Assembly: GCA_025936825.1 (NCBI GenBank)
Contig: JAICSO010000009.1
Location: forward strand, 124,001 to 188,000
DNA length: 64,000 nt
Direction: 5' to 3'
DNA from: Terriglobales bacterium
GTDB lineage: Bacteria > Acidobacteriota > Terriglobia > Terriglobales > Acidobacteriaceae
Position numbers and translations under genes: made by a program
Shown here: positions 357-46,270 of the stretch, one piece after another
Numbering within the stretch: position 1 is the stretch's first letter
How the letters are laid out: each line of letters begins with the position of its first letter
Notes under the pieces: model-generated
What the model saw: only the letters and a program-made list of their open reading frames with translations
What the model was told of the DNA's origin: nothing
Database searches by the model: none

Positions 357-3300
357 GTGACGACTAACTTCGGTTTCCTTCAACCCGAATGGGCGCAGCT
401 CTGTGCAGATGCGACAAAAGCCGAAGAGCTGGTTATCCCTGACCCACGCACTGCTTGCTTCTACGCCCGTCGGGCGCTCGAGTCCGTAATTGCCTGGCTG
501 TACAGAAGCGATGCCGCACTCAAGCTCCCCTACCAGGACAATCTCAGCGCTCTGATCCATGAGCCGACGTTCAAGCAAGCTGTTGGGCCGAAGATCTTTG
601 TTAAGGCTAAGCTGATTAAGGATCTCGGCAACCTAGCCGAGCACAGCCATAAGCCATTGCAGCAGCTGGACTCGATGACTGCGATGCGTGAGCTGTTCCA
701 CATCTGCTTCTGGCTCGCACGCACTTACGGCAAGTCTGCACAGCTGGCGGACAGTCTAGCCTTTGATCCGACACTGCTGCCCAAAACCTCTCCGGTCCCG
801 CCCCAGACGCTCGCTCAGATCCAGCAGCTCGAGTCGCAGCTTGCCGAAAAAGACACTCGATTAACTGAACTATTGACCGGCAAGGCCGCTCTGGACGCCG
901 ACCTCGAGCGTCTGCGCCTGGAGATCGCCGCGACCAAGAAGCAAAACGAGGCTACACCGGACACACACAACTACTCCGAGGCGGAAACGCGGGACTACTT
1001 CATCGACCTGCTATTGAAGGAAGCTGGCTGGGCGCTCGATAAACCGCAGGATCGTGAGTATCCGGTGACTGGCATGCCCAACGAAAAGGGCGAAGGCTTC
1101 GTTGACTACGTGCTCTGGGGTGATGACGGCAAGCCGCTCGGCCTTGTCGAGGCGAAGCGCACAAAACGAGATGCGCGCGTCGGGCAGCGGCAAGCCGAAC
1201 TCTACGCTGACTGTCTGGAGAAGAAGTTCGGGCAGCGGCCGATCATTTCCTACAGCAACGGATACGAGCACTGGATCTGGGATGACCGCAACTATCCACC
1301 GCGCTCTATGCAGGGTTTCTACACGAAAGATGAGTTGGAGCGGTTGATTCAGCGGCGGAGCACCCGCACCAGCCTCGCTGATACGGATATCGACACCGCT
1401 ATCGTTGAGCGTTTCTATCAGCAGCGCGCAATCCGGCGCATTGGTGAAGCGTTTGACAAGGATCACGAGCGCAAAGCGCTGGTCGTAATGGCTACAGGCG
1501 CCGGCAAGACGCGGACTGTGATTGCGTTATGCGACCTGATGATGCGGTGCAATTGGGTAAAGCGCGTCCTATTCCTCGCCGATCGGATCGCGCTGGTTAA
1601 ACAGACCACAAACGCGTTCAAACGGCACCTGCCGTCGGCCGGTGCAGTGAATGCGCTCGACCACGCCGAACAAATTGGAGATGCGCGGGTTCTGGTTTCC
1701 ACCTACCCGACGATGCTCCGCCTGATCGATGAAACCAAAGACGGCAGGCGGCAATTTGGTCCAGGCCACTTCGATCTAGTGATCATCGACGAGGCCCACC
1801 GCTCCGTTTATCAGAAGTATCGAGCAATCTTCGAGTACTTCGATTCGTTCCTTGTTGGCCTGACAGCCACGCCCAAAGACGAAGTCGATCACAACACGTA
1901 CAGCTTGTTCGAATTGGAAGACGGCGTACCGACTGACGCTTACGGTCTTGACGAGGCGGTCAGAGACAAGTTTCTGGTTCCTCCGAAAGCAGTGTCTGTC
2001 CCGCTGAAATTTCAGCGCCAAGGCATGAAGTACGACGAATTGCCCGATGAAGAGAAAGAGCAGTGGGATGCGATTGAGTGGGACGAGGACGGCAACATAC
2101 CGCGCACTGTGGAACCGGAAGCGCTCAATCGCTGGCTGTTCAACGAGGATACGATCGACAAAGTCTTAGAGCACCTGATGACGCGTGGAATGAAGGTGGC
2201 AGACGGTGATCGGCTTGGTAAGACGATTGTCTTCGCCAAGAATCACGATCACGCGCAGTTCATCGCCGATCGCTTCGACAAGAATTATCCACACTACAAG
2301 GGCAGCTTCGCCCGAGTGATTGATTTCCAGGTGGAGTACGTGCAATCGCTCATTGACGACTTCTCAAATCCCGCGCGCGCGCCTCACCTTGCGATCTCGG
2401 TGGACATGCTCGACACTGGCATCGACATTCCGGAGATCGTGAACTTGGTGTTCTTCAAGATGGTGAGGTCGAAGACCAAGTTCTGGCAGATGGTGGGCCG
2501 TGGCACGCGCCTTCGCCCCGATCTCTTTGGAATAGGCCTGAACAAGCAATGTTTCTACGTCTTCGACTATTGTCAAAACCTCGAATTCTTCAGCGAAAAT
2601 CCGGAAACAGTCAGCGGCTCAGGAAATGAATCGTTGGGCAAGAAGCTCTTCGCCAGCCGCGTGGAACTGATTGCAGAGCTGGATAAGCAGAAGGATGCTG
2701 ACGTCAAGCAAGGATTGCGAAGTGATGTTGCCGAACGTCTCAGGCAGGAAGTCGAGCAGATGAACGTCAACAACTTCATCGTGCGGCCGAAGCGGAAGCT
2801 GGTCGAGAAATATGCGGACGCGAAGGCGTGGGAGACGCTCGGGATCGAACAGCGCGGTGAACTCGTCGACTGCGTGGCCGGTCTTCCATCCGAACTGATG
2901 GACGAAGATCGGGAAGCGAAGCAGTTCGACATGCTGATTTTGCGCCTGCAGCTTGGACTACTTCGCCACGAGAAGTCGTTCGCTCGCTGGAGCGAAGATG
3001 TGCGGGAAATCGCGGGTGCGCTCGAGGAAAAGGCGGCGATCCCGATGGTGCGAGCGGAACTCGAGCTCATCATCGAAGTGCAAACCGATGAGTATTGGCA
3101 GGACATCACGGTTGGCATGTTGGAGGACGCTCGCAAGCGGCTCCGTAGCCTCGTGAAATTTATCGAAAAGACGAAGCGTCCTACGATCTACACGGATTTC
3201 ACCGACTCGATGGGCGAGGAGCAAGAGATCGAGCTGCCAGGATTCGATTCTGGTCACGATGTGGAGCGCTTTCGAGATAAGACGCAGCAATTCCTGAAAG

Positions 3301-3725
3301 CGCACGAGAACGATCCAGTGATTCAGAAGTTGCGCTTCAATGAGCGCCTCACGGAAGAGGATCTAGACACCCTGGAGCGCGTGCTCGCCGAGGTTGGCAC
3401 CGATACGCGGGAAAAGCTGCACAGGATGCGCGTAGGTGGCGAGCTTGGCTTGTTTGTGCGCGAGCTGATCGGTCTGGACCGCGAGGCTGCGAAACGCTCC
3501 TTCGGCGGTTTTCTAGCCGGAAAAAGTCTTACGGCAAATCAGATTGAATTCGTGAACCTGATCGTCGACTGCCTCACCCAGAGCGGCTGGATGCGCGTGT
3601 CCCAACTCTACGATGCGCCGTTCACGGAATACAGCCCGAGAGGCATAGATGGTCTATTCAACCCAGAGCACGTTGGGCAACTGGTTGCAGTTTTGGATGA
3701 AATTAGAGCTAGAGCTGGCGGCTAA
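357..3725 (+). CDS. hsdR: Type I restriction endonuclease subunit R with N-terminal DUF4145 domain
   Basis: A 1122-residue restriction/translocation subunit that starts at GTG 9 bp after hsdS. In order: a DUF4145-like helical domain (about 1-135), a coiled coil (about 150-200), a PD-(D/E)xK nuclease with Asp250 and Glu265-Ala-Lys267, then an SF2 translocase. The translocase has Walker A ATGAGKT at 379-385, the DEAH box at 478-481 and a motif VI region QMVGRGTRLRP near 711-721. The remainder matches the EcoEI-type C-terminal region that binds the methylase core. With HsdM and HsdS it would translocate and cut DNA lacking the host modification. All catalytic motifs are intact, so the protein is likely active. 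It sits in an island next to an integrase, consistent with horizontal acquisition. Confidence 0.95.
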   Translation: MTTNFGFLQPEWAQLCADATKAEELVIPDPRTACFYARRALESVIAWLYRSDAALKLPYQDNLSALIHEPTFKQAVGPKIFVKAKLIKDLGNLAEHSHKPLQQLDSMTAMRELFHICFWLARTYGKSAQLADSLAFDPTLLPKTSPVPPQTLAQIQQLESQLAEKDTRLTELLTGKAALDADLERLRLEIAATKKQNEATPDTHNYSEAETRDYFIDLLLKEAGWALDKPQDREYPVTGMPNEKGEGFVDYVLWGDDGKPLGLVEAKRTKRDARVGQRQAELYADCLEKKFGQRPIISYSNGYEHWIWDDRNYPPRSMQGFYTKDELERLIQRRSTRTSLADTDIDTAIVERFYQQRAIRRIGEAFDKDHERKALVVMATGAGKTRTVIALCDLMMRCNWVKRVLFLADRIALVKQTTNAFKRHLPSAGAVNALDHAEQIGDARVLVSTYPTMLRLIDETKDGRRQFGPGHFDLVIIDEAHRSVYQKYRAIFEYFDSFLVGLTATPKDEVDHNTYSLFELEDGVPTDAYGLDEAVRDKFLVPPKAVSVPLKFQRQGMKYDELPDEEKEQWDAIEWDEDGNIPRTVEPEALNRWLFNEDTIDKVLEHLMTRGMKVADGDRLGKTIVFAKNHDHAQFIADRFDKNYPHYKGSFARVIDFQVEYVQSLIDDFSNPARAPHLAISVDMLDTGIDIPEIVNLVFFKMVRSKTKFWQMVGRGTRLRPDLFGIGLNKQCFYVFDYCQNLEFFSENPETVSGSGNESLGKKLFASRVELIAELDKQKDADVKQGLRSDVAERLRQEVEQMNVNNFIVRPKRKLVEKYADAKAWETLGIEQRGELVDCVAGLPSELMDEDREAKQFDMLILRLQLGLLRHEKSFARWSEDVREIAGALEEKAAIPMVRAELELIIEVQTDEYWQDITVGMLEDARKRLRSLVKFIEKTKRPTIYTDFTDSMGEEQEIELPGFDSGHDVERFRDKTQQFLKAHENDPVIQKLRFNERLTEEDLDTLERVLAEVGTDTREKLHRMRVGGELGLFVRELIGLDREAAKRSFGGFLAGKSLTANQIEFVNLIVDCLTQSGWMRVSQLYDAPFTEYSPRGIDGLFNPEHVGQLVAVLDEIRARAGG

Positions 3726-3778
3726 GCCGGAGTTTGCAGACCGTTTCGCTGCACAGCGACGTCTCACAGGGAGGAGAG

Positions 3779-4813
3779 ATGGCTATTTGGCTAGTCCGCG
3801 CTGGGTCGCATGGAGAGTACGAACAGAAGTTCATACAGGAGTCACGCATATATGTGACCTGGGATCACCTGTCGACCAACCTCAAGCAATTGAATGCGCG
3901 AGAGGACATCGCAGAGTTCTTGACGCTGCTGTACCCCAACGCGAAGCCCAGAACTGTTCAAAACTGGAGTTCTCAAATCTGGCCGTTCGCTCACGAGATG
4001 AAGAAGGGTGACATGGTTGTCGTCCCACTGAAGAGCCAGCCGGCGATTTACGTGGGAGAGCTGACGAGCGATTATCACTTCGAGTCGAACGGACCTGCTC
4101 CCTTCTACCACTGGCGTGCCATCAAATGGGTCGGTGAGGCGATTCCGCGTGCTCACTTTGGCAAGGACCTGCTGTTTTCTCTCGGAGCTTTCCTGACGAT
4201 ATGCCGTGTGCAAAGGAACAATGCCGAGGCACGGATTACCGCAATGCGCGCTAGCGGATGGAAACCCGAAACCATTGCAATCGCGGCTGCGGCCACACTG
4301 GTGGAAGGCACTGTATCGGGCGACGATGCTGACCTGGAGGAACTCGCGCATGATCAGATCGCTCAACTCATTTCCGCTCGATTCAAAGGCCACGGTCTTG
4401 CACGACTAGTCGAGGCGATTTTGCAGGCTCAGGGATACACAACCTACCGTAGCCCTGAGGGCTCTGATGGAGGCGCTGATATTTTGGCCGGTAACGGGCC
4501 TCTTGGGTTCGGTACGCCACGCCTCTGCGTCGAGGTAAAGTCAGAGGCGTCACCGATTGATCGGCCCACGGTTGATAAGCTGCTCGGTGCCGTTGGTAAA
4601 TTCAACGCTCAGGAAGGCTTGTTCATCTCTTGGAGCGGGTTCAAAAGCAACGTGCAGAAGGAACTGGCAGCCAGCTTTTTTCGAGTGCGGCTGTGGAGCC
4701 AAAAAGAGCTCTTGGAACAGCTCTTCGTGTATTACGAACGGCTTGACGAGGACATCAAAGCCGAACTGCCGCTGAAACGAATCTGGACAGTGGCAGCACA
4801 AGAGAAGGAATAG
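3779..4813 (+). CDS. Mrr-like restriction endonuclease with N-terminal PUA/EVE-like region
   Basis: A 344-residue protein. The start is set at ATG 3779, which has a strong GGAGGAG ribosome site directly upstream; an in-frame start further upstream has none. The C-terminal half is an Mrr-type PD-(D/E)xK nuclease: helical QGYTTYRSPEGSDGGADI supplies Asp234, followed by Glu252-Val-Lys254 in CVEVKS. The N-terminal part (MAIWLVRAG, then KKGDMVVVPLKSQPAIYVGEL near 80-100) resembles PUA/EVE-like modules, which in related proteins can read modified bases; that role is inference here. The gene follows hsdR by 53 bp on the same strand and is probably co-transcribed as a second defence nuclease. It may be a modification-dependent (type IV) enzyme, but substrate preference cannot be read from sequence. 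Confidence 0.82.
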   Translation: MAIWLVRAGSHGEYEQKFIQESRIYVTWDHLSTNLKQLNAREDIAEFLTLLYPNAKPRTVQNWSSQIWPFAHEMKKGDMVVVPLKSQPAIYVGELTSDYHFESNGPAPFYHWRAIKWVGEAIPRAHFGKDLLFSLGAFLTICRVQRNNAEARITAMRASGWKPETIAIAAAATLVEGTVSGDDADLEELAHDQIAQLISARFKGHGLARLVEAILQAQGYTTYRSPEGSDGGADILAGNGPLGFGTPRLCVEVKSEASPIDRPTVDKLLGAVGKFNAQEGLFISWSGFKSNVQKELAASFFRVRLWSQKELLEQLFVYYERLDEDIKAELPLKRIWTVAAQEKE

Positions 4814-17866: not shown

Positions 17867-18225
17867 ATGTACGAGGTCATACTGAAGAGATTTGAAATCC
17901 CGACGAAGTTCGCACCTTTGATAAGGGCAAATTCGAAATTGTGCATTTGGGCGGAATGACGATTGGACGTGCAACCTATGAGCCTGGTTGGAAATGGTCG
18001 GTACACGTCGGCAAAGCGGCAGGGCAGAAAAGTTGCTCCGTCGAGCACGTGGGCATGGTCGTCTCCGGCCGCGCTACCGCTGCCATGGACGACGGCCGCA
18101 TTATCGAAATGCGCGCGGGCGATGTTTTCTACATTGCGCCTGGGCACGATAGCTGGGTGTTGGGCGAGGAACCGTACGTCTCTTTGCATTTCATGGGAGC
18201 AGGGGAATACGCCAAACATAAGTAA
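17867..18225 (+). pseudogene. Cupin-domain protein, frameshifted near its N-terminus
   Basis: From ATG 17867 (GGAGAAGG upstream) the frame reads MYEVILKRFE and soon stops. A second frame supplies DEVRTFDKGKFEIVHLGGM and the whole cupin barrel: MTIGRATYEPGWKWSVHVGK, VEHVGMVVSGRATAAMDDGR and MRAGDVFYIAPGHDSWVLG. One missing base in the A-run at 17895-17897 would join them (the span is 359 bp, one short of a multiple of three). Translation from GTG 17941 would still give a 94-residue cupin core, but without its first strands. Cupins of this type are small metal-binding stress or sensor proteins; the ligand is unknown. Confidence 0.7.
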
Positions 18226-18299
18226 GAGCTAATTGCCTCAGGTGACAGGCTCACGCGGCGCGCGAGTTTTGCTATCTTCAATGAGGATCTCTAAAGCAC

Positions 18300-18397
18300 G
18301 GAAGCGCATGCGGTCCGGTGATCGTCCCGGTCTTCAAAACCGGCGGGTGGCATCTAGCGGTGTCACCGGTGGGTTCGACCCCCACTCGCTTCCGCCA
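18300..18397 (+). tRNA. selC: tRNA-Sec (anticodon TCA)
   Basis: A 98-nt tRNA with encoded CCA. Features specific to selenocysteine tRNA are anticodon TCA at 18334-18336 in loop CTTCAAA, a 6-bp D-stem closed by the CGGT loop, a long variable arm (about 18343-18366), T-loop TTCGACC, and discriminator G before CCA. The acceptor stem pairs GGAAGCG with CGCTTCC; the eighth pair is a C-T mismatch. It implies SelA/SelB/SelD elsewhere in the genome and at least one selenoprotein. No selenoprotein gene was recognised in this window. Confidence 0.95.
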
Positions 18398-18413
18398 TTG
18401 CCCACACAATTCC

Positions 18414-19658
18414 ATGAGCACTCGTCGGCAGTTCGTTAAATCGGCCGTAGTTGCGACGAGCGTTATCGCTGGTTCAGACAGTCCTGCAAAGGTAACTACG
18501 CTTCAGTCATCGCCCTCGCCTTTGGGGGCAGAGGACCGCAAATACTGGGTAGGAATTGCGGCTCGCCTTGCGTCGCCCGTTCTCGACGCACTCGCACATC
18601 GTAGGCTGAAAGCTGAGATGCCCGTCGAACAGCGTCGTGGCGCTGAACGAACTTCTTATACGTATCTCGAGGCGTTTGCGAGATTACTGTGCGGCATCGC
18701 ACCGTGGCTCGAAAATTCCGCGCATGTGACGGACGATGAGGGCGCACAACGGTTTGCGGAACTGGCGCGCGAGGGATTGAACGCTGCTAGCGATTTTTCA
18801 TCTCCTGATCGGATGAACTTCTCAGAGGGCGCACAGCCACTCGTCGACGCCGCTTTCCTTGCAGAAGCCATTCTGCGTGCTCCTGTTGAGCTATGGCACA
18901 AAGTTGCCGCACGTGTTCAGCGAAATCTGATAGAGGCGATAAAGCAGACTCGCAGCATTCAACCGCCGGAAAGCAATTGGCAGTTGTTTGCCACCATGAT
19001 CGAAATGTTCTTTCAATTCGCCGGCGAACAGGTTGACCGCACGCGGCTTGAGACTGGCCTTCAAAAGTATCGCAATTGGTATCTCGGAGATGGTGTATAC
19101 GGGGACGGTCCCGAGTTTCACTGGGACTACTACAACTCCTTCGTGATCCATCCCATGTTGGTCGACGCGCTGAGCGCTCTCAGCGAGAGTCAATGGACTG
19201 AGTTTCGCGAACGAGAGCTATTGCGGCTAACCCGCTGGGCTGCAATTCAAGAACGCTTGATTGCGCCGGATGGCAGCTACCCGGCAATTGGGCGGTCCAT
19301 CACTTATCGTTGTGGAGCGTTTCATGGCCTCGCGCTTGCCGCGCTGAAACACGCTCTTCCGGCGGAAGTGAAGCCTGGCCAGGCAAGAAGGGCCTTGACC
19401 GCCGTCATTCGCCGCACTCTGGAGTCTCCGAATACCTGGGATGCGAAAGGATGGTTGCTGACGGGTCTAGCTGGTCATCAACCTTCTCTCGGCGAGCGTT
19501 ATATCTCGACTGGCAACTTGTACCTTTGCAGCGCCGCATTGCTGCCGCTAGGGCTACCCTCGACCGATGCCTTCTGGAGCGAATCGAGCGGCGTAACAAC
19601 TTGGGAAACAGCATGGAGCGGACGAGATCTTCCCGCAGACCACGCCCTTGATACCTAG
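18414..19658 (+). CDS. TAT-exported DUF2264 protein
   Basis: A 414-residue protein beginning at ATG 18414, 16 bases after tRNA-Sec; upstream frame extension would run through the tRNA and is wrong. The N-terminus STRRQFVKSAVVATSVIAG is a twin-arginine signal. The rest matches DUF2264: YWVGIAARLASPVLDALAHR, then TSYTYLEAFARLLCGIAPWL, and YGDGPEFHWDYYNSFVIHPM. It is an alpha/alpha-barrel family often found with polysaccharide-degrading enzymes, and a glycan-active role is possible but unproven. It may share a transcript with selC. Confidence 0.85.
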   Translation: MSTRRQFVKSAVVATSVIAGSDSPAKVTTLQSSPSPLGAEDRKYWVGIAARLASPVLDALAHRRLKAEMPVEQRRGAERTSYTYLEAFARLLCGIAPWLENSAHVTDDEGAQRFAELAREGLNAASDFSSPDRMNFSEGAQPLVDAAFLAEAILRAPVELWHKVAARVQRNLIEAIKQTRSIQPPESNWQLFATMIEMFFQFAGEQVDRTRLETGLQKYRNWYLGDGVYGDGPEFHWDYYNSFVIHPMLVDALSALSESQWTEFRERELLRLTRWAAIQERLIAPDGSYPAIGRSITYRCGAFHGLALAALKHALPAEVKPGQARRALTAVIRRTLESPNTWDAKGWLLTGLAGHQPSLGERYISTGNLYLCSAALLPLGLPSTDAFWSESSGVTTWETAWSGRDLPADHALDT

Positions 19659-19663
19659 TAGAT

Positions 19664-20782
19664 TTACCGCGCGAATGCAGACAGCGTCTGTTTGCGCTTT
19701 GGGATTCCCCGTTGATGGCAGTCGAGGCACTTCACGGAATGAATGTTGTGCTTGCTAGCGTTGTCCTTGAAGGTGGTGTCCATCTTCTCGACATCAAGCC
19801 TGCAGTCGAGATGCTGGGTATGGCAGTTGTCGCAGGAGGCGCGAGTTTGCTGGCCGTGTTGTTGATGGCACGAGAAGCAACTCAGGCCTTCGTGGACGCC
19901 GATGGGCGTGCGGTCATCGCCTGAGTACACTTCGCGTGTGGCCACCGGTGCGTGGCATTGATAGCAGAGTGCCTGCCGCTGGTCGTGACTCATCGCTACG
20001 ATACGAGAACGATCAAGCATTACGGGGAGCGGCAAGTCGGCAACCGCGATGTAGTCAAACTCTCGGCGATCGAGGAAGGCCAGCGATGGGCGTGTGATCT
20101 CCTGCTGCGGGCCAGTTGACGCTCCGTTTGGTTCAGATTTCTGCAGTGGCACGCCTTCGTGGTGGAGTTGATGGCAGGCGAGGCAGGGCACCACGGCCTG
20201 TTGTGTGAGTTCAGCGTTCTTCAGCCGCCAAGGGCCGTGAATATCAACAGGCGTGACAAGGTCGCGAATGCCTCCCTCGAAGTGCATCGCGTGGCAGCGC
20301 AGGCAGTCGTCGTTTATTTGCTGCTTCTGGTTTTGCGCGGTGTTGAGGAAGATGTCGGAATAAGTCGTGCTGTGGCGACTGGAGCGCCACGCTGCGAACT
20401 CCTGCTGGTGACAACTTTGGCATCGCGTAGTCATAGCGAGTACGTCAGCGTTTTTGAGTTTCGGCTTCTCCGGGGTTTTGCCGCGCAGGTGCGTTATCAC
20501 CCGACCCATGTTCTTCAGGTGGAAGCCTGCGTTCAACGTGAGCACATCGCCATGGCAGCTTGAGCAGGCAACGTTGCGGTGTGTCGAGGAGTGCCAGTCT
20601 GTGTAGGGCTGCCAGATCTCGTGACAACTGGCGCAAGCATGGCCAGATCGTTCGTAATAAATGCTGGGTGTCGCAAAAGCCACGGCGATGATCACGAGTA
20701 CTGTCGCTGTTCCAGCCAGCCAACTGCCGAACAGACGCCTAGTGATGCGCTTACGCAACGGCCTGTTGGGCTCGTGCGTCAT
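19664..20782 (-). CDS. Nine-haem membrane-anchored cytochrome c (NapC/NrfH- or NrfA-like)
   Basis: A 372-residue protein. One N-terminal membrane helix (about 19-40) is followed by nine CxxCH haem sites beginning at residues 50, 73, 121, 160, 200, 273, 302, 317 and 352. The first pair (CASCHEIWQPYTDWHSSTH, CSSCHG) resembles NapC/NirT quinol dehydrogenases. The protein would sit on the periplasmic face and pass electrons between a membrane carrier and its partner. Its start overlaps the stop of the GMC gene by 4 bp (ATGA), strongly suggesting that the two products work together as dehydrogenase and electron acceptor. Confidence 0.88.
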   Translation of the reverse strand: MTHEPNRPLRKRITRRLFGSWLAGTATVLVIIAVAFATPSIYYERSGHACASCHEIWQPYTDWHSSTHRNVACSSCHGDVLTLNAGFHLKNMGRVITHLRGKTPEKPKLKNADVLAMTTRCQSCHQQEFAAWRSSRHSTTYSDIFLNTAQNQKQQINDDCLRCHAMHFEGGIRDLVTPVDIHGPWRLKNAELTQQAVVPCLACHQLHHEGVPLQKSEPNGASTGPQQEITRPSLAFLDRREFDYIAVADLPLPVMLDRSRIVAMSHDQRQALCYQCHAPVATREVYSGDDRTPIGVHEGLSCFSCHQQHGQQTRASCDNCHTQHLDCRLDVEKMDTTFKDNASKHNIHSVKCLDCHQRGIPKRKQTLSAFAR

Positions 20783-22417
20783 ACGGATTTCCAGTTCTGC
20801 GCGATGTGCTCGCCCACGCGGTACGCATTTGCCATGATTGTCAGTACAGGATTAAATCCGCCGTTGGTCACATGTACGCTTCCATCCGCGATGAAAAGAT
20901 TTTCGACATCGTGAACGCGGCAGTTGCGGTCCACAACTGAGGTATGCGGATCGTTTCCCATGCGGCAAGTGCCCGCTTGATGCTGACCGCCGCTTAACTC
21001 GGAGCCGGGAAGACGCGGCCACGTTCGAATCGCTCCTGCTTCTTTGAGCCACCGCTCGGCCTTGTCAGCAATGTATTTCGCGGTGACGATGTCGGAAGGA
21101 TGACGATGGCCGGAAAGGCGCGCCACCGGAATGCCCCAGAAATCCCCCACTGTGGGATCAACCTGCACACGCGCCTCGAATACTGGCAATTCCTGCACCG
21201 GCCCCATCACAACGCTGGAGCGCCGGTAGTACTTGCGCATGTAATCCTTGTGCTCGTTGCCCCAACGCGGCAGTCCCGGTGGACTCATGCCGGCGAAATG
21301 AATTGGAAGGCGAATAAATTCATTGCACAGCAGCGCACCGCCAACCAATCCCGGATTGCCGTGGTTATAGTCGCAGATCGCAATCGAAGCTCCGGGCCCG
21401 AGATCGTCGAAGACTTCGAAGTTGAACAGACCCATCGCTCCGGTATAGGCATGCCCTTGCAGATTGCGCCCGACCCAGTCATAGCGATTGCCGATGCCGT
21501 TCGGAAACAAGAGGCTCCTGGAATTCAGCAACAGGCGAGCCGATTCGACGGCAGATCCTGCAATGACGACAACATCGGCAGGTTGCTCCCGCAGATGATT
21601 ATGCTGATCAAAATACGCAACTCCAGTAGCACGACCTTTTCCATTGGTCAGGACTTCTTTAACTACGCAGTTGGTGCGCAGTTCGCAGTTGCCGGTAGCG
21701 AGAGCTCTGGGGATGACGGTGTTGTGCGTGCCATTCTTGGCATCCACCTCGCATGCGAAACCAACACACCAACGGCAACGCATGCATCCGCCGCGGCCGT
21801 TGTAGGGAACGCTGTTACGCAACATGGGAATGTGAAACGGATGCAGGCCGAGGCGCTTAGCGGCGGCACCGAGCAGTACGTGCTCTTTGCTGTCGGGCAA
21901 AGGCGGCATTGGTAGAGGCTTCTTGCGCGGCGGCTTTTGCGGTGGTTCGGGGCCCCCTGAAACTCCGATTTCCCATTCCGCTTTTTCATAATATGGTTCG
22001 AGGTCCTCGTAGCTGATCGGCCAGTCGTCGAGCGTGCTAGCCTCGACTGTTCCGTAAGTCGAGCGCATGCGGAAATCCTGCGGCATGAAGCGCCACGCCA
22101 TTTGCGCCGTAGCTGAATGTGCCGCCGCCAACACAGGCCGCATTGTTGGAGTAGGCCCAGTGATTGGGCTTTATGACACGCGGCCGTCCATCGTCGCTGA
22201 TTGCGACTCGGGGATTACGTTCATCAGGGCCGAAGCCGCAACCGAGAAATGATGTTCGCTGATTCCGCAGGTCGTCTTTACGGCAATCGAAAGCGGTGTG
22301 CCATTTGCCCCGCTCCAGCAGCACAACGCTCATGCCGGCGCAGGCAAGTTCCTTGGCGACGACACCGCCGCCAGCGCCTGCCCCCACCACAACCGCGTTG
22401 AGCTTCTTCAGTGGCAT
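20779..22417 (-). pseudogene. GMC-family flavin dehydrogenase, frameshifted
   Basis: The first frame (from ATG 22417) carries the FAD-binding Rossmann motif VVVGAGAGGGVVAKELA and runs to CVGGGTFSYGA. The second frame picks up AWRFMPQDFRMRSTYG and continues to the GMC C-terminal domain (QAGTCRMGNDPHTSVVD, LFIADGSVHVTNGGFNP). The frames meet at a T-run on the plus strand (22101-22103) where removing one base restores a protein of about 545 residues; the span is 1639 bp, one more than a multiple of three. It is otherwise intact, so this may be a sequencing slip or a recent mutation. It resembles the large subunit of gluconate/sorbitol-type membrane dehydrogenases and lies between its small subunit and a cytochrome. 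Confidence 0.82.
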
Positions 22418-22433
22418 TGCAATGCTTGTGCCG

Positions 22434-22994
22434 TCACGTGGCGCGCGGGTCGTATTTCAAGCGGCCGCGTACCTGAGGATAAGCGAGTCCGACCATCTTC
22501 CAACTTACGCGTGCTCGGTTGCCGCCGTGTCGCGGATCTCCGTAGAAGCCCTGCATCGTATGCGACAGCACCGTCTCAAAGAACTGTCGTGAGTCGACGG
22601 TTTCCCAGATGTTCTTCGAAACCGTACCTCGCTCGGTAGCGTCGAGAATTTCGACTTGTTGTTTTCCATCTAGTTCGGCGAAACGCTTCCCGAACCAGGA
22701 GCGGGCGGTCGCATCGGTGTAGCCGAGGCCGTCGCGGTACAAATCCTGCGCATCGGCAAATGGACCACACAGCTGAATGTCGATGAAGTTGACGGCCTGG
22801 GCCCACTCGGCGCCGGGATCCTGATCTGGCGGAACAAGTTGGCCGCAAATGGCCGCGAGAACGCGGGCTTCACACAGGCGGAGAAAGCGCCAGGGGGTTG
22901 GTGATCCGGAGCACGTCGTCATTCCGCTAGCCGCCGCTGCTGCGGCAGCAAGCTCAATGAATTCGCGACGGGTGAGGTTCTTGTACCAGCTCAC
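22434..22994 (-). CDS. Gluconate 2-dehydrogenase subunit 3-like protein
   Basis: A 186-residue protein, starting at GTG, with a twin-arginine signal (LTRREFIELAAAAAAASG) and a family core resembling PF13618: RVLAAICGQLVPPDQDPGAE, VNFIDIQLCGPFADA and FFETVLSHTMQGFYGDP. In known enzymes this small subunit is exported together with the GMC flavoprotein, for which it provides the TAT signal. The GMC gene follows after 16 bp. The trio suggests a periplasmic sugar or alcohol dehydrogenase feeding the respiratory chain; the substrate is not deducible. Confidence 0.85.
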   Translation of the reverse strand: MSWYKNLTRREFIELAAAAAAASGMTTCSGSPTPWRFLRLCEARVLAAICGQLVPPDQDPGAEWAQAVNFIDIQLCGPFADAQDLYRDGLGYTDATARSWFGKRFAELDGKQQVEILDATERGTVSKNIWETVDSRQFFETVLSHTMQGFYGDPRHGGNRARVSWKMVGLAYPQVRGRLKYDPRAT

Positions 22995-23110
22995 AGCAAT
23001 GCGCAGACCTAGTGGGCCTGCTTAACGCATTGTGAAATAAGCAAGAACGCGGGGAAGTGATGGAGGTCACAGACCCTGGTATCCGGGTACACCGGGCACT
23101 TGCGACAGAA

Positions 23111-25018
23111 CTACTCGCCCCGCACCAGGCGCAGCGTGTCAGCGACAGCATCCTCGCGCGACTTCGGCTTTCCGTTGCCGTTGGGCGGCACATCCTCAGT
23201 CGTGTCACCCTCGCCGGGAGCGAGGAACAGGTTGTTTACCAGTCCTTGCTGCTTGGTATAGAGCTCGTAATAGCGACCTTGGGCCGCATAGAGTTTATCG
23301 TGGTTGCCACGCTCAACAATGCGCCCTTGCTCAACCACGAGAATCTGATCGGCACGCCGGATAGTGGAGAGGCGATGGGCGATCACGAAGGTAGTGCGCC
23401 CGCGCATGAGATAAGAGAGGCCTTCCTGGATCATCTGCTCCGATTCGGAGTCGAGGCTGGAGGTGGCTTCGTCGAGAATCAGAATGCGAGGTTCCGCAAG
23501 GATTGCACGAGCGATAGAGATGCGCTGGCGCTGGCCTCCGGAAAGCTTAACGCCGCGTTCGCCCACAATGGTGTCGTACTTATCCGCAAAGCTCTCGGCG
23601 AATTCGTCGACGCGAGCGATGCGGCAGGCGCGCAATACCTCTGCCGCGCTCGCATCAGGACGCGAGAAAGCGACATTCTCGCGAATGCTCCCATCGAACA
23701 GAAAAGAATCCTGCAGCACAACCCCGAGCTGGGTACGGTAGGAGTCGAGCCGGACGGTGCTGAGGTCAACTCCATCGACCAGCACTGCGCCTTGTTTTGG
23801 AGTGTAGAAGGCGGAGATCAGGCCGATGATGGTGGACTTGCCTGAACCAGACGATCCGACCAACGCAGTGACTGTGCCTGGGGCGGCATGAAACGAAATG
23901 CCGTCAATTACGGTACGCACACCGTCATAGCTGAAGCTGACGTGGTCGAAATCGACATTGCCGTCAATTTCGGGTAGAGCTATGGTTCGGCGAGGATCAC
24001 GATCTTCGGCAGATTCTTTCAGGATCTCGTGAGTGCGTTCCAAGCCGGCGACGGCCTCAGTAAGCTGCGTACCGATTTGGACAATCTGCATCACCGGAGC
24101 GATCAGGAACCCCATAAAGAGCGTGTAGGTGAAGAAGCCGCCGATGGTCAGCGAGCCCGCTAGGATCTGTCGTGCACCGACGTACATAATGACCGCACCG
24201 ACAACACCGAGCAGCATGCTGGCGGAAAGGCCCATGATCGAAGTTGCGGTGAGAGTCTTGAGCACATTATCGAGCAGCCGCTTCACGCCTGCGGAGAAGA
24301 CATTTTCTTCTCGGGTCTCGGCATGATAACCCTTTACGACGCGAATTCCGCCCAGTGATTCCGCGAGACGTCCCGTGACTTCGGCATTAATTTTGCCGCG
24401 CTCGCGGAAGATTGGCCTGATTGTCTGAAAGGCTTTTTTCAGAGCAAGAGCGAAGGCCGCCAGAAATCCGAAGGCCAGCAGCGTCATGACGCTGCTGATC
24501 CGGAAAAGCACCACCAGCGCAATGCTGGCGGTCAGCAGGCCGCCAACAAGGTCCACCAGGCCGGTTCCAATCAGGTTTCGAACGCCTTCCACGTCGCTCA
24601 TGATGCGCGAGACAAGAACGCCGCTCTTTGTTGAGTCGTGAAACGAAACCGGAAGTCGGCCGACATGCGCCTGCACTTTTTGCCGAAGTTCATTGATTAG
24701 CCGCTGAGCAGCTTTCGACAGCAACTGGGTCAGCGAAAACGACGTGACGCCTTGGACGAAGGTTGCGGCCAGAACGCCGAAAACGATCGGCTTCAATAAG
24801 CCGATCTGGTGCTTGGTGATGACATTATCGATCAGAAATCGCGTCGAGTATGGGAGAACGAGCGAAGCGACGCGATTGATGGCCATCAACACGAAGCCAA
24901 AGGCGAGCAGTCCTCGGCGCGGGCGGACGAGTTCCCAAACCAGCGGGAGCACCGCTCGTAACTTGGGGCGGGATGCTCCGGCGCCAGATGCACGAAAGTG
25001 ATGGGGAACTGTTTGCAT
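23111..25018 (-). CDS. ABC exporter, fused permease/ATPase (MsbA/BmrA-like)
   Basis: A 635-residue half-transporter. The N-terminal part has six predicted membrane helices (about 20-310, ABC_membrane type with EVTGRLAESLGGIRVVKGY). The nucleotide-binding domain has Walker A GSSGSGKST (about 387-395), the signature KLSGGQRQRISIARA, Walker B ILILDEATSSLD and the H-loop VIAHRLSTIRRAD. It works as a homodimer exporting lipids, drugs or peptides. The C-terminal tail beyond the ATPase (about 40 residues) is polar and unusual in composition. No partner gene is adjacent, so the substrate is unknown. Confidence 0.92.
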   Translation of the reverse strand: MQTVPHHFRASGAGASRPKLRAVLPLVWELVRPRRGLLAFGFVLMAINRVASLVLPYSTRFLIDNVITKHQIGLLKPIVFGVLAATFVQGVTSFSLTQLLSKAAQRLINELRQKVQAHVGRLPVSFHDSTKSGVLVSRIMSDVEGVRNLIGTGLVDLVGGLLTASIALVVLFRISSVMTLLAFGFLAAFALALKKAFQTIRPIFRERGKINAEVTGRLAESLGGIRVVKGYHAETREENVFSAGVKRLLDNVLKTLTATSIMGLSASMLLGVVGAVIMYVGARQILAGSLTIGGFFTYTLFMGFLIAPVMQIVQIGTQLTEAVAGLERTHEILKESAEDRDPRRTIALPEIDGNVDFDHVSFSYDGVRTVIDGISFHAAPGTVTALVGSSGSGKSTIIGLISAFYTPKQGAVLVDGVDLSTVRLDSYRTQLGVVLQDSFLFDGSIRENVAFSRPDASAAEVLRACRIARVDEFAESFADKYDTIVGERGVKLSGGQRQRISIARAILAEPRILILDEATSSLDSESEQMIQEGLSYLMRGRTTFVIAHRLSTIRRADQILVVEQGRIVERGNHDKLYAAQGRYYELYTKQQGLVNNLFLAPGEGDTTEDVPPNGNGKPKSREDAVADTLRLVRGE

Positions 25019-40928: not shown

Positions 40929-42134
40929 CTAAGCGGAACGACGACCTTCCGGCATACCTGCGCTTTGCCATGTAACTGCGCGGCTGTCTGCCGCAAGCGG
41001 ATCAAGAACCTGCCGATAGGCTGCGATGGTTTGTTCGGCAGCTTTCCGCCAGGAGAAGTCCGCAGCCCGCGCCAAGGCGCGCTTACGCCAGCGTTCCCGC
41101 TCTTCCGGGTTCGTCAGGAGTAGTGCGATGGCTTGAGACATGCCTCGCGAATCCTTAGGATCGAAGATCAACGCGCCATCACCCGCCACTTCGGCGAGTG
41201 ATCCGCCGCTTGAAGTAATCACCGGGCAGGCGCACGACATGGCTTCCAGGATGGGCAATCCGAATCCTTCATACAACGAAGTCATTAGAAACAGCTCCGC
41301 ATTCCGCAGCAACGCCCCGATGTCCTCGACCGGCATATATCCCAGGTAGCGGACGTCGACCTGCGACAGCACGGCAGGATTCTTGAGATTCTCGATCGCA
41401 GTTCTAGGCCCATAGATGGCGAGTTGAATTCGTCGGCCGAGGGCGCGCGATGCCGAGGCCACAGCTTCTATGGCCGTGTCCAGGTTTTTCGTTCGCCAAT
41501 TGCAGCCCGCACTGCCAACCACGGCGTACGGCGGACACACTCGATAGGTTTGCTCCAACCTTTCCGTTTCGCGCTGCGACCCGTTACTGTGAAACGCGTC
41601 GTGGGATGCAGCGAGGTGAACGGTCGTGATTCTGGTGGCGGGCACACCTAAGATCTTTTCGACGTCATGTGCTGTGTTGAGGGAATCAGTGATGATATGC
41701 CGAGTGCGTAGCGCGGCCACGCGGCACCCCAGCTTTACCCAGGGCACCGCAGCCAGTTGCTTATACCAGTCTCGCGTGCGGAACAGAAAAGGGATCAGGT
41801 CGTGCACTGTGATGACTAAGGGGCACGGCAAGAATAACGGCACTCCATATTGGAAAGGGCTGTGAAACAAATCAATATGTAGGGCCCTGCACAGGGTTCT
41901 TAGTTCGTATTGCGAGCCCAGTGACAATTTGCTTGAGCGTACCGCGACGCGCGAGAGGCGGGCAGCGGGACAAAAGGGAACAGGCTTGCCGGCCTCTTCA
42001 AACACGTACAGCTGCAACTCCGAATCAGCGGCACAGATTGCGTTCAGCAATTGCCTTATATAAGTTCCTACGCCTGACTGGTTATACCAACGGGCGTCGA
42101 ATGCAATGCGCATATCTGATCCGAGCGGCCGCAT
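40929..42134 (-). CDS. GT4-like glycosyltransferase (paralogue B)
   Basis: A 401-residue GT-B glycosyltransferase. ATG 42134 overlaps the stop of the polymerase gene by one base (TGATG), whereas ATG 42113 gives the family-like MRIAFDARWYNQSG; the former is favoured by coupling and the latter by homology. It shares with its neighbour GVGTY near the N-terminus, DLIPFLFRTRDWYKQL, NWRTKNLDTAIEAV and LYEGFGLPILEAMSCACPVI. These two clearly derive from one ancestor. They probably add successive, possibly similar, sugars to the repeat unit. Confidence 0.9.
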   Translation of the reverse strand: MRPLGSDMRIAFDARWYNQSGVGTYIRQLLNAICAADSELQLYVFEEAGKPVPFCPAARLSRVAVRSSKLSLGSQYELRTLCRALHIDLFHSPFQYGVPLFLPCPLVITVHDLIPFLFRTRDWYKQLAAVPWVKLGCRVAALRTRHIITDSLNTAHDVEKILGVPATRITTVHLAASHDAFHSNGSQRETERLEQTYRVCPPYAVVGSAGCNWRTKNLDTAIEAVASASRALGRRIQLAIYGPRTAIENLKNPAVLSQVDVRYLGYMPVEDIGALLRNAELFLMTSLYEGFGLPILEAMSCACPVITSSGGSLAEVAGDGALIFDPKDSRGMSQAIALLLTNPEERERWRKRALARAADFSWRKAAEQTIAAYRQVLDPLAADSRAVTWQSAGMPEGRRSA

Positions 42135-43513
42135 CAGACTGCTGTATCAGCCGTGGTGTGCAGCCTTTCCATCCTTGATCGAACGGCCAGCCCTACAGGG
42201 AACCAGAGCCAGCATGCCAGAGGGAAAACGTCGTGCAGCGCAGCAAAGGTCATCACCGCGGAAAACCCAACGACCACTCCAAGAGCCACAAGGTCCAGCT
42301 TTGTCGGCTCGGGCCGTAGATACCGCACCAGGGATACGAGAAATGCTATGAAGCAAATTACGGTGCCGATGCCATATTCGGCGGCGAAAGTCAGATACGT
42401 ATCCTCGACGGAGAAGGCGGTTCCCTCGGTCTTAACCGCAAGTTTGCCCGCGTTTCCCGGACCAACGCCGAAAGGGTGTTGCGCAATGAACTGAATCCCC
42501 TCAATGATCGACTCGCGATGGCCCTGGGCGGAGGGATCTTCGCCGGATTTCGTTGATTTGAGATAGTCTGTCAAGCCCAGCACTGGAATTGCAGCGATAA
42601 ACAAGGCGAGCATCACTGCCCCAGCTTTTAATAGCCGCCGAGTTTCTCCTAATTGGACGGACACAAAACCCAGTGCAACCGCAGTCCCCACCCACGCGGA
42701 ACGCGTTACGGTGCAGATAAGACCGGCCGCGAGCATTAGGCCTGGGATCGTCTTACGGGAATAAATCCACCATATGACCAGCGCCGCCATACACAGAGGT
42801 GCAAACTGAAGGGGACCAAACATCGTCGATGATTCGCGCAGACCTAAGTACCCTTGCGCGTGGAAGGCCGCATCAAGCGCATTTCCGTCAGTACCACCTC
42901 TGCTGACGGCAAGGTACAGAACCGTTCTCGGGCCTTCGCCAATAATGAATACCTCTACCATACCGAGAACTGCCAAAAGCGACACAATCCAAACAGCTCG
43001 GGTCGCCCAGTATTGCTCTCGGTCGCCGTCCAGCGTCGTGAGGCGGCCGGCGGCGTACGCGATCACAAAGTTAAAGTCCGACAGCAGCGCCAGCAGAGAT
43101 CCTCCGAAGATGAAATGTGCCGTCGCCAAACCGAAGCACGCCAGCAAGAGCCAATCCGGTCTCGTAAGGTGAATGCCATTCTTGCACCAGAGACCAAACG
43201 CGATTAACAACAGCGCGCCCCGGTCTGCCCCCTCAAGCGCACCGATGTATGGGGGGCCAAAAAATTTGGCAAGCAGAAAAAGCAAGGTGTACGTGGGAAT
43301 GAAAGCCAAAAACAAACCCAAACCCTGAGTTGGATATTTGAAAGTCGCCCAAAGCACCAATACGCTCGCCGTGGCCACAGTCACCAGCAGCAACGACATG
43401 CCGATCACGCCCAGGAGGGCAATGAACACTACTGCACATCCCGCAGAACTGATTGCCAGCAGCTTGCGCAGGCCGCTTCGCGGCCCTTCAACTGTTTGAA
43501 ACGTCGTCCCCAT
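42134..43513 (-). CDS. O-antigen ligase/polymerase family (Wzy-like) membrane protein
   Basis: A 459-residue protein with 11-13 predicted membrane helices and the periplasmic O-antigen ligase (PF04932) region: LICTVTRSAWVGTAVALGFV, then a loop with HRESIIEGIQFIAQHPFGVG ending in GNAGKLAV. It probably polymerises or ligates repeat units at the outer face of the inner membrane. It has a short AT-rich leader (AATTAATAATTAATG on the minus strand), different from the compact junctions elsewhere in the cluster; an internal promoter is possible there. The gene symbol is withheld since Wzy and WaaL cannot be told apart by eye. Confidence 0.82.
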   Translation of the reverse strand: MGTTFQTVEGPRSGLRKLLAISSAGCAVVFIALLGVIGMSLLLVTVATASVLVLWATFKYPTQGLGLFLAFIPTYTLLFLLAKFFGPPYIGALEGADRGALLLIAFGLWCKNGIHLTRPDWLLLACFGLATAHFIFGGSLLALLSDFNFVIAYAAGRLTTLDGDREQYWATRAVWIVSLLAVLGMVEVFIIGEGPRTVLYLAVSRGGTDGNALDAAFHAQGYLGLRESSTMFGPLQFAPLCMAALVIWWIYSRKTIPGLMLAAGLICTVTRSAWVGTAVALGFVSVQLGETRRLLKAGAVMLALFIAAIPVLGLTDYLKSTKSGEDPSAQGHRESIIEGIQFIAQHPFGVGPGNAGKLAVKTEGTAFSVEDTYLTFAAEYGIGTVICFIAFLVSLVRYLRPEPTKLDLVALGVVVGFSAVMTFAALHDVFPLACWLWFPVGLAVRSRMERLHTTADTAV

Positions 43514-43545
43514 TAATTATTAATTTAAGAGAGCATTGCTGAGTG

Positions 43546-44754
43546 TCAGCTGGCCGTTGCCGATCGAAGTACCTGGAGTGTTTGTTCCGCGCATCTTTGC
43601 CAACTAAACGTGCTGGCACGCGCCTTGCCGGCGGACGCAAGACGCTGTCGCACATCATCGTGCTCCAGCACTTCCTCGATCCTTGCGGCCATGTCTTCTA
43701 CCGAGTAGGGATCGAAGTACAAAAGTTCGCCACCAGATACTTCAGGCAGGCACGATGAATTGGAGCAGATTACTGGTGCCCCGCACGCCATTGCTTCCAG
43801 CAGGGGCAGGCAGAACCCCTCGTACAAAGAAGGAATAACGACTAGGGTCGCACATTTGAGCAGAATCGCTAGCTCAGGATCACTTAAAGGGCCGGTGAAT
43901 ACCACACGCTCAGGTGGCTGACAGTGGCTCGCGGCTGCAACAATACGCTCGTGTCCCCAGCCGTTTTCCCCTACCAGCACCAAAGCGGTATCTAGATTCT
44001 TGTTGTTGCCGACGAGTGCGCGGTAGGCGTTGATCAGTCGTTCAAGATTCTTTCGCTCCTGGATCCTGCCGTGGTGCAGTATGAATGGTTGCCTGATTCC
44101 CAACTTGTTTAATAGTGGGTCGCGCTCCGAAGGATCTACCGGGTCGTTGTTAAATATTTTGTTGTCACACGCCAGGTACACCACATGCACTTTCGATTCT
44201 GGTAAGCGGAACACGTTAACCAGGTCCTGCTTGGAATGCTGTGAATCCGTGATGACGGCGCGAGACAGTCTGGCGCACATTGCAAACTCGCGCTTCAGTG
44301 CCTGTGCTCTTGGAACATTTGGAAAGACCACCGGGATGATGTCGTGAATCGTGGTGACTGCGGGAATTAGGCCACCGATGGGAATTGTGTTGGCTGACGG
44401 GCAAAACAGCACATCAGCCTTGCTCTTGCGAGCGGACCAGCAGGCGCCTCCATATCTCCAGAGCCGTCCGATGCGCAGCAAAGTTGTGTTGTAAGGCCTA
44501 AATCCGTCAGTAGCTGTGAACTGGTTTGCATCACTAGCTACCGTGGAAGACACCAGCGGCCTGAAATGCATTTCTCCTTCCTGCGCAACCTCCCTGAAAT
44601 ACGAGAGAAGATTTCGAGCATAGACGTAGATGCCGTTATTCCGAAACCGACTTAGCAATGGCCACGTGTCGAAGGCAATGGTGCAGTGACGGCCATTGCC
44701 GTTTCGTGGTTGAACGAGATTGCTGCTGATATGGTTCACTGGCAACTCAGGCAT
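43546..44754 (-). CDS. GT4-family glycosyltransferase
   Basis: A 402-residue GT-B enzyme. An N-terminal extension of about 25 residues precedes IAFDTWPLLSRFRNNGIYVY; then TIHDIIPVVFPNVPRA, LHHGRIQERKNLERLINAY and the catalytic LYEGFCLPLLEAMACGAPVI. It resembles mannosyl- or rhamnosyl-transferases of capsule clusters. Its start overlaps the flippase stop by 8 bp. It likely acts on lipid-linked intermediates in the cytoplasm; the donor might be the GDP-6-deoxyhexose made by gmd/rmd, but this is inference. Confidence 0.9.
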   Translation of the reverse strand: MPELPVNHISSNLVQPRNGNGRHCTIAFDTWPLLSRFRNNGIYVYARNLLSYFREVAQEGEMHFRPLVSSTVASDANQFTATDGFRPYNTTLLRIGRLWRYGGACWSARKSKADVLFCPSANTIPIGGLIPAVTTIHDIIPVVFPNVPRAQALKREFAMCARLSRAVITDSQHSKQDLVNVFRLPESKVHVVYLACDNKIFNNDPVDPSERDPLLNKLGIRQPFILHHGRIQERKNLERLINAYRALVGNNKNLDTALVLVGENGWGHERIVAAASHCQPPERVVFTGPLSDPELAILLKCATLVVIPSLYEGFCLPLLEAMACGAPVICSNSSCLPEVSGGELLYFDPYSVEDMAARIEEVLEHDDVRQRLASAGKARASTFSWQRCAEQTLQVLRSATAS

Positions 44755-46270
44755 TTGCCTTGGGCAAGATTGGAACGGCTTTCAGCAAAGTGCGCATCCT
44801 CGTGCGCGACGGAGCGTCGAGTGCCCAGTGCCAGGTGATCGCGGTAAAGAGGCCAACGATGGCGACGAAGAACAAGATTTTCAAACCTAGCCCACTTACG
44901 AGGGTGGCCAGTAACAGTGCTGCTGCTCCCGCGCCCATTGTCATCCACAAGCGCGGTGCAAGCACGGCTCTGAGAAAAAAGAATAGAACAACCGCTTCTG
45001 CGCTCAGTCGAATCGTCCACGCCAGCGCAGCCCCTTCAATACCGCGCATCCGCACTCCCCAGTAGAGCAGCGCCAGATAGCAGGGCACTTCAATCAGGTG
45101 CAGTTTGGCCGTGAGGTCGGGCCGACCAGACGCCTGCAGCAGCGCATATGGCATATTCGCAAGGCTGTTCGTGAACACTCCGATTGCCAATATCTGCAAG
45201 ACGACTGTACTGCGACCTGCGAAATCTGCGCCTAGCCAGAGAGTCAGTCCCTCACGGGCGCCCAACACAATTCCGAGAATGCTTGGGAACAAGATCGCGA
45301 AGGTGCTCGTAAGGCTTCGTTCATAAAGTGATGTGGTGCGCGGATGATCTTCAACTGCGAGCGCCTCCGAGAACGCGGGAAACAAAACTCCCGATAACGC
45401 AGCAGGGACAAGCCATAGCTTTGTGACCGCGTCAAAGGGCGCTGCGTAATAGGCGACCGCGGAAATCGAAACCACTGACCCAATCACAAAGCGGTCGAGA
45501 TATACCATTACCGGCCCGACGATATTGCTCACGGTCAGCCAACTACCGAAGCCGATGAGGGCTCGAAATGCCGCTTTGTCCCATGTGACATCGAACGAGA
45601 ACCCGGTCACGCAACGCCGGCAGACCGCGAAGTGTAGCGCGCAGTTCGCAAGACGCGCGACCGCCAGGGTCAAAACGATGGGGTAAAGGCTGCGTGAGAA
45701 CGGCAGCACCGCGAGGGGCGCAAGATAGCTGATGAATCCGAAGGCTACGCGTAAGGCGTTCACGGCGGCAAAATTCTGCTGCGCCTCCAGCATTCCTCGC
45801 AAACCAGAGGTTAGCGTGACAAACGGCACGGCGACAGCCAGCCATAGCAAGCTGCGCAAAACTTCCGACTGCAATGCGGCCGGGATTTTTAGCGCGGAGT
45901 GCGTGAGCCATGGTGCCAAAGCAAACAGCACCCCGCCGAAGCACACGCCGAGCAAGAGCATGCAGGCTATGGCTGTCCACACCAGGTTTGCCGCGCCTTC
46001 GCTGTCACGTAAGGCAATTTTTTCCGCCAGCAGTTTGGTTACGGCGCGCCCAATTCCAAAATCGAAGAGGCTGAAGTAACCGACCAGAATCCAAACGAGC
46101 GTAAGGACGCCAAATCTATCTACACCCAGGTGGTGTATTAGAACCGGAATTGCGACCGCTGCAAGCGCTAGCGGCAACAATTGTCCGGCAAAATTCCACA
46201 GACTGTTGCGAACAACACTGGGCCGACGAGTACTTGTCGGTGGTGGCGCGACGTTTGCTGGCTGATTCAC
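44747..46270 (-). CDS. wzx: Wzx-type flippase (MOP superfamily)
   Basis: A 507-residue polytopic protein with about 14 hydrophobic segments, starting at GTG with a GTGA overlap to the methyltransferase. The N-terminus SVVRNSLWNFAGQLLPLALA and FGVLTLVWILVGYFSLFDFG are characteristic of polysaccharide flippases (PST family). It moves the lipid-linked repeat unit across the inner membrane for polymerisation. It is translationally coupled with genes on both sides. Function as a lipid-glycan flippase is strongly supported by context. Confidence 0.9.
   Translation of the reverse strand: MNQPANVAPPPTSTRRPSVVRNSLWNFAGQLLPLALAAVAIPVLIHHLGVDRFGVLTLVWILVGYFSLFDFGIGRAVTKLLAEKIALRDSEGAANLVWTAIACMLLLGVCFGGVLFALAPWLTHSALKIPAALQSEVLRSLLWLAVAVPFVTLTSGLRGMLEAQQNFAAVNALRVAFGFISYLAPLAVLPFSRSLYPIVLTLAVARLANCALHFAVCRRCVTGFSFDVTWDKAAFRALIGFGSWLTVSNIVGPVMVYLDRFVIGSVVSISAVAYYAAPFDAVTKLWLVPAALSGVLFPAFSEALAVEDHPRTTSLYERSLTSTFAILFPSILGIVLGAREGLTLWLGADFAGRSTVVLQILAIGVFTNSLANMPYALLQASGRPDLTAKLHLIEVPCYLALLYWGVRMRGIEGAALAWTIRLSAEAVVLFFFLRAVLAPRLWMTMGAGAAALLLATLVSGLGLKILFFVAIVGLFTAITWHWALDAPSRTRMRTLLKAVPILPKANA

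Follow-up and report, generated by a model that had tools for sequence, protein, structure and literature searches.

The DNA studied here is a window of 64,000 nt from a Terriglobales bacterium (Acidobacteriaceae; assembly GCA_025936825.1, contig JAICSO010000009.1, positions 124,001-188,000 of the forward strand), to which all window coordinates below refer. On its minus strand, between 19664 and 22994, three genes follow each other in the order of transcription: subunit 3, a GMC dehydrogenase and a nine-haem cytochrome (Table 1). The GMC_oxred_N/C (20779-22143) and Gluconate_2-dh3 (22434-22994) matches both exceed their Pfam cut-offs. An earlier note on this DNA had described a dehydrogenase trio with a nine-haem cytochrome that has a NapC-like anchor. 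Its content and coordinates are right and the trio is indeed conserved, but the split of the GMC gene over two frames had been overlooked. A DUF2264 protein (358 bits) is encoded at 18318-19658, convergent with the cytochrome gene, and O-antigen ligase-like and polysaccharide flippase-like genes lie at 42134-46270, apparently within a long minus-strand polysaccharide cluster.

Table 1. Genes and features of the dehydrogenase trio in the window.
Feature	Position	Strand	Basis
Subunit 3 (Gluconate_2-dh3, PF13618), 186 aa, GTG start	22434..22994	-	98.6 bits in Pfam (cut-off 23.4); related loci have an orthologue upstream of GMC
Tat signal (RR = residues 9-10) ending in lipobox-like Cys28; predicted lipoprotein anchor	22911..22994	-	TIGR01409 17.5 bits vs 16.7
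GMC FAD-dependent dehydrogenase, one frameshift; 545 aa when read across	20779..22417	-	ORFs 22037-22417 + 20779-22143
One-base excess (AAA on minus strand) breaking the GMC frame	22101..22103	-	Comparison with orthologues
Cys cluster CMRCRWCVGFAC, predicted Fe-S cluster ligands	21751..21786	-	All four Cys invariant among aligned sequences
Nine-haem c-type cytochrome, 372 aa; start codon overlaps GMC stop (ATGA)	19664..20782	-	Translation; orthologues
Predicted N-terminal transmembrane helix of cytochrome, about residues 18-40	20663..20731	-	Hydrophobic run ahead of first CxxCH in orthologues
Haem-binding region of cytochrome: residues 24-165 NrfH-like (haems 1-4), 200-357 NrfB/DmsE-like matches (haems 5-9)	19715..20635	-	TIGR03153, TIGR03508, TIGR03146

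The GMC dehydrogenase of the window is 63-73% identical to intact orthologues. The GMC profile aligns end to end with the catalytic subunits of Burkholderia cepacia FAD-GDH (BcGDH; 6a2u_B, E 3e-89) and of fructose dehydrogenase (FDH; E 3e-82). An intact orthologue was modelled with AF2 (pLDDT 80.6), and the nine best PDB matches of its model are FDH and FAD-GDH (Foldseek, TM 0.79-0.81). These best-matching structures belong to sugar dehydrogenases, which makes a sugar, a polyol or a sugar acid the likely substrate; no hint on the substrate was found among the genes neighbouring the trio. The catalytic His (QHQAGT) and Asn (NGGFNP) are kept throughout the cytochrome-linked GMC clade, and the four Cys of a CxxCxxCx4C loop are invariant in 21 aligned sequences. 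Three of them align with Cys212, Cys218 and Cys222 of BcGDH, and one further Cys is present. In BcGDH these residues hold a 3Fe-4S cluster, through which electrons pass from FAD to the multihaem subunit (PMC6719666). The four-Cys loop is a predicted site for an Fe-S cluster, which may be of the 3Fe-4S or 4Fe-4S type. Further GMC genes in the window's own genome (L039, L040; about 30% identical) lie near Gluconate_2-dh3 matches, with no multihaem gene nearby. A Paenibacillus plasmid has a CDS (L182, 3449-5581) whose product joins a subunit-3-like region to a GMC domain (50% identical).

The Tat motif of the window's subunit 3 scores above the TIGR01409 cut-off. In every cytochrome-linked subunit 3 examined, as well as in the orthologous pair L079 discussed below, the Tat signal ends in a lipobox-like Cys preceded by a small residue, and none of the unlinked subunit 3 homologues examined has such a Cys at that position. 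The lipobox is weak in the window's protein (MTTC). Since the co-occurrence of this Cys and the cytochrome marks one clade, it counts as one evolutionary event. Subunit 3 is probably a Tat-exported lipoprotein that would tether the GMC subunit to the membrane, next to the cytochrome with its own anchor. A profile search of the PDB with subunit 3 returned no homologue.

The nine haem motifs of the window's cytochrome are all CxxCH. Shuffled sequences of the same composition contain 0.06 such motifs on average and at most three in 20,000 shuffles, so nine of them are not due to chance. All nine are invariant in 31 aligned cytochromes, save one contig-truncated row. Six His residues outside the motifs (68, 98, 137, 207, 297 and 309) are likewise invariant in the 31 sequences, His348 is kept wherever present and His345 in nearly all, while His88, conserved in the window's group, is found in nearly all rows in which its column is filled. 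A first count of exactly nine invariant non-motif His was softened to eight near-universal ones plus His88 once the 31 sequences were aligned. These eight or nine strongly conserved residues are possible axial ligands, and their number would suffice for mostly bis-His haems.

In its N-terminal half (residues 24-165), the cytochrome aligns with almost all of the NrfH model TIGR03153, at 42.1 bits compared to an equivalog cut-off of 134.2. The C-terminal half is matched by TIGR03508 (DmsE) on residues 263-357 and by TIGR03146 (NrfB) on residues 265-314, and such matches are present in all 12 orthologues. The sole PDB match of the cytochrome profile is NrfH. Based on these model matches, the protein is best described as an NrfH-like tetrahaem head that appears fused to an NrfB/DmsE-like pentahaem tail. 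The NapC-like anchor of the earlier note thus stands as a remote kinship (TIGR03153 in 12/12 orthologues, PF03264 NapC/NirT in 6/12). The cytochrome was also considered as the nitrite reductase NrfA and this was rejected: PF02335 is absent from the window's protein and the first haem motif is CxxCH like all others, not CxxCK. Among the orthologues PF02335 gives one marginal match (E 0.019; 1/12). No full alignment with a nitrite reductase was found; such an alignment is what the earlier note had named as speaking against its reading. An AF2 prediction from 12 orthologues (pLDDT 42.5) was too poor for a fold search or haem geometry. The cytochrome was not found in plasmids.

The distribution of the trio was followed by a GTDB-wide scan with the cytochrome, a GMC-first survey of 299 genomes of the window's class and a cytochrome-first survey of 399 genomes. 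The scan returned 13 relatives, all from Acidobacteriota, each of them preceded by GMC and subunit 3 genes wherever the contig reaches far enough. All searches together, 44 other loci, all in Acidobacteriota, have the subunit 3, GMC and cytochrome genes in this order. The earlier note had proposed such a survey and named missing linkage in neighbouring genomes as a refutation of its reading, which is not borne out. Eleven of the 44 loci were reached from the cytochrome alone in the 399-genome sample, where 11 out of 11 further genomes examined were linked. In that sample a cytochrome match occurs in 39 genomes and in 23 of 135 genera. The unlinked matches are a fragment in L179 and a paralogue in L038. 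The latter (3254-4306) also has nine haems, is 33% identical and carries CxxCHxM at haem 1; no GMC gene lies nearby, and its genome has a linked copy as well.

When the neighbourhoods of GMC genes were fetched, those encoding proteins at least 63% identical to the window's over the whole protein had the nine-haem gene directly downstream, with L079 as one exception. The GMC relatives examined at 34-62% identity are mostly accompanied by subunit 3, with no multihaem gene nearby. The stop codon of the GMC gene and the start codon of the cytochrome gene often overlap or nearly do so, frequently by four bases as in the window. Clustering of the neighbours across loci revealed no other gene that recurs around the trio, and therefore the trio itself is the unit. 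Its linkage is far beyond chance.

Cytochrome presence coincides with one clade of the GMC tree. The two changes of the cytochrome label on this tree are read as one gain and one loss, a direction that depends on midpoint rooting. In the orthologous pair L079 (1-4633) there is no cytochrome within 1.6 kb, nor elsewhere in the genome by profile, and small unrelated ORFs lie downstream. The earlier note held that the nine-haem cytochrome replaces a three-haem partner. This claim is not supported, since in the class the most closely related GMC/subunit-3 pairs lack any cytochrome gene in their vicinity. A three-haem cytochrome gene was found neither near the window's trio nor in related loci. The nine-haem cytochrome thus looks added in this lineage, not swapped for a three-haem one, and the ancestral state in this lineage appears to be one with no linked cytochrome.

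Taken singly, the dehydrogenase, its export partner and the two cytochrome halves belong to known kinds; what is new is their conserved combination. A literature search for multihaem partners of GMC/subunit 3, which covered few subscription papers, found no description of this arrangement. Like BcGDH (gamma-alpha-beta; 6a2u) and the Gluconobacter FDH (8jej, 7w2j), the trio has a GMC subunit that matches end to end, the His/Asn pair, a surface Cys cluster, an exported small subunit and a c-type cytochrome partner. Unlike their three-haem subunit, this partner has nine haems, an N-terminal anchor and an NrfH/NrfB-type sequence; subunit 3 belongs to PF13618, and the Cys loop is spaced CxxCxxCx4C. 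The pairing of GMC and small subunit is also seen in membrane gluconate 2-dehydrogenase (GADH) and in the Campylobacter GADH cj0414-cj0415, a precedent for a two-component enzyme (PMC4178425), but the trio has an added nine-haem cytochrome, in contrast to both the Campylobacter pair and GADH with its three-haem subunit. Like the tetrahaem quinol dehydrogenases NrfH, NapC and CymA, the cytochrome has a helix at its N-terminus and then four CxxCH within the head. In contrast to them, it has five extra haems, stays below the NrfH equivalog cut-off, keeps the quinol-site Met/Asp only partly and would have to work in reverse, in the quinone-reducing direction. Its C-terminal five-haem half is similar to the pentahaem NrfB and the decahaem relays of DmsE/MtrA type (TIGR03146, TIGR03508), yet here a membrane-anchored NrfH-like head precedes it in the same protein, and the linked enzyme is a GMC dehydrogenase, not NrfA or DMSO reductase.

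We propose, with good confidence, that the three proteins form a membrane-bound FAD dehydrogenase that works in the periplasm on a sugar, a polyol or a sugar acid and is wired to the respiratory chain via its own nine-haem cytochrome. The genes and their fixed order, the haem sites, the export signals and the conserved residues are read from the sequence itself, whereas complex formation, cluster type, the order of electron transfer, its endpoint and the substrate are inferred. Subunit 3, which has a Tat signal and probably a lipid anchor, would take the folded FAD-GMC subunit along as a hitchhiker during export. The GMC subunit would oxidise the substrate by the His/Asn pair and pass the electrons from FAD to the Fe-S cluster in the four-Cys loop, from where they would enter the nine-haem cytochrome with its four-haem membrane head and five-haem tail; this order is drawn from the analogy with BcGDH. 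The electrons would then proceed to the respiratory chain, where the NrfH-like head most likely hands them to the quinone pool. If the trio does form one complex, we lean towards the quinone pool as endpoint, in line with the NrfH-like membrane head of the cytochrome and with the ubiquinone reduction by classical three-haem complexes. In NrfH, Met49 and Asp89 are called essential for menaquinol oxidation (PMC10654088). Among the 31 cytochromes, about half have Met at the position of Met49 (CxxCHxM) and those of the window's group have Ile, whereas the Asp89 position is variable, with the invariant His98 close by. An invariant Ile replacing the haem-1 Met, true of the 12 closest sequences, was dropped when 31 were aligned. 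With Met49 and Asp89 only partly kept, the quinone pool is still a plausible endpoint. The earlier note took the cytochrome to imply a different electron route, for example by direct exchange with the quinone pool. Classical three-haem complexes are, however, ubiquinone oxidoreductases themselves (PMC9171043), so quinone reduction here would lead to the same destination and would not be a new route.

Alternatively, the cytochrome of the same dehydrogenase may bypass the quinone pool and deliver electrons to other periplasmic cytochromes and on to a terminal oxidase, with the helix serving as an anchor only. We give this tentative weight, in view of the poorly conserved NrfH quinol-site residues and the likeness of the C-terminal half to the electron-relay cytochromes NrfB and DmsE. 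The NrfD-like membrane proteins and several haem-copper oxidases encoded in the window's genome could serve such a chain, and with them either endpoint has an onward route. Yet the head of the cytochrome keeps the NrfH/NapC-type architecture with its membrane helix, the known complexes of this enzyme class reduce ubiquinone and no acceptor gene is linked to the trio. Outward transfer to an extracellular acceptor, as a variant of the bypass, is less likely. We regard it as very improbable that the genes are merely co-located, with the cytochrome serving another oxidoreductase while GMC and subunit 3 use a diffusible carrier like their cytochrome-less relatives. In its favour, sister GMC/subunit-3 pairs evidently get by with no cytochrome gene beside them, the orthologous pair L079 lacks one and the distant paralogue in L038 sits without GMC. 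Such a reading is hard to reconcile with 44 conserved linkages and overlapping genes in surroundings that are otherwise unrelated, and with a cytochrome presence that matches one GMC clade.

The state of the window's own copy is a separate matter. Its GMC gene lies in two overlapping frames, 22037-22417 and 20779-22143, separated by one extra base in an AAA tract; the site reads GGCGCAAATGGCG in the window vs, e.g., GGCGCCATGGCC in in-frame orthologues. Intact GMC relatives read YGAMAWRF without interruption at this site, and the extra base is absent from the intact orthologues examined. The frame is broken, whether by mutation or by sequencing error, and this copy of the unit may therefore be dead. 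That the frameshift is a true mutation and the locus a decaying pseudogene falls just short of probable in our judgement; such decay would concern this one copy and does not conflict with the dehydrogenase proposed for the family. Besides the base in excess of intact orthologues, the absence of the full-length cytochrome from all seven sampled genomes of the same genus points to decay. On the other hand, the three genes have no other stop or frameshift, conservation is normal on either side of the break, and an error of one base in a short homopolymer, in a draft of 141 contigs, has about the same likelihood. In same-genus genomes both flanks of the trio are conserved (up to about 18.2 kb and from about 23.2 kb; window 18225-23201), and the trio was not found beside either of them. 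A clean empty site was sought there and none could be demonstrated, as the best-assembled congener has the two flanks on different contigs.

Acidobacteriota are abundant in soil and peat, and about a tenth of the sampled genomes of the class carry the cytochrome. If the proposed dehydrogenase is correct, it would couple sugar oxidation in the periplasm to respiration in a new manner, with an NrfH/NapC scaffold recruited to an oxidative enzyme. With its long haem wire it may be a natural direct-electron-transfer enzyme and as such of interest for biosensors. In the most far-reaching case, which we consider unlikely at present, the trio would represent a separate class of respiratory sugar dehydrogenases, seen to date in Acidobacteriota only. 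Its built-in nine-haem wire of fused NrfH-like and NrfB-like modules would either run the NrfH-type quinone module backwards or pass by the quinones and feed the electrons directly into a network in the periplasm or outside the cell.
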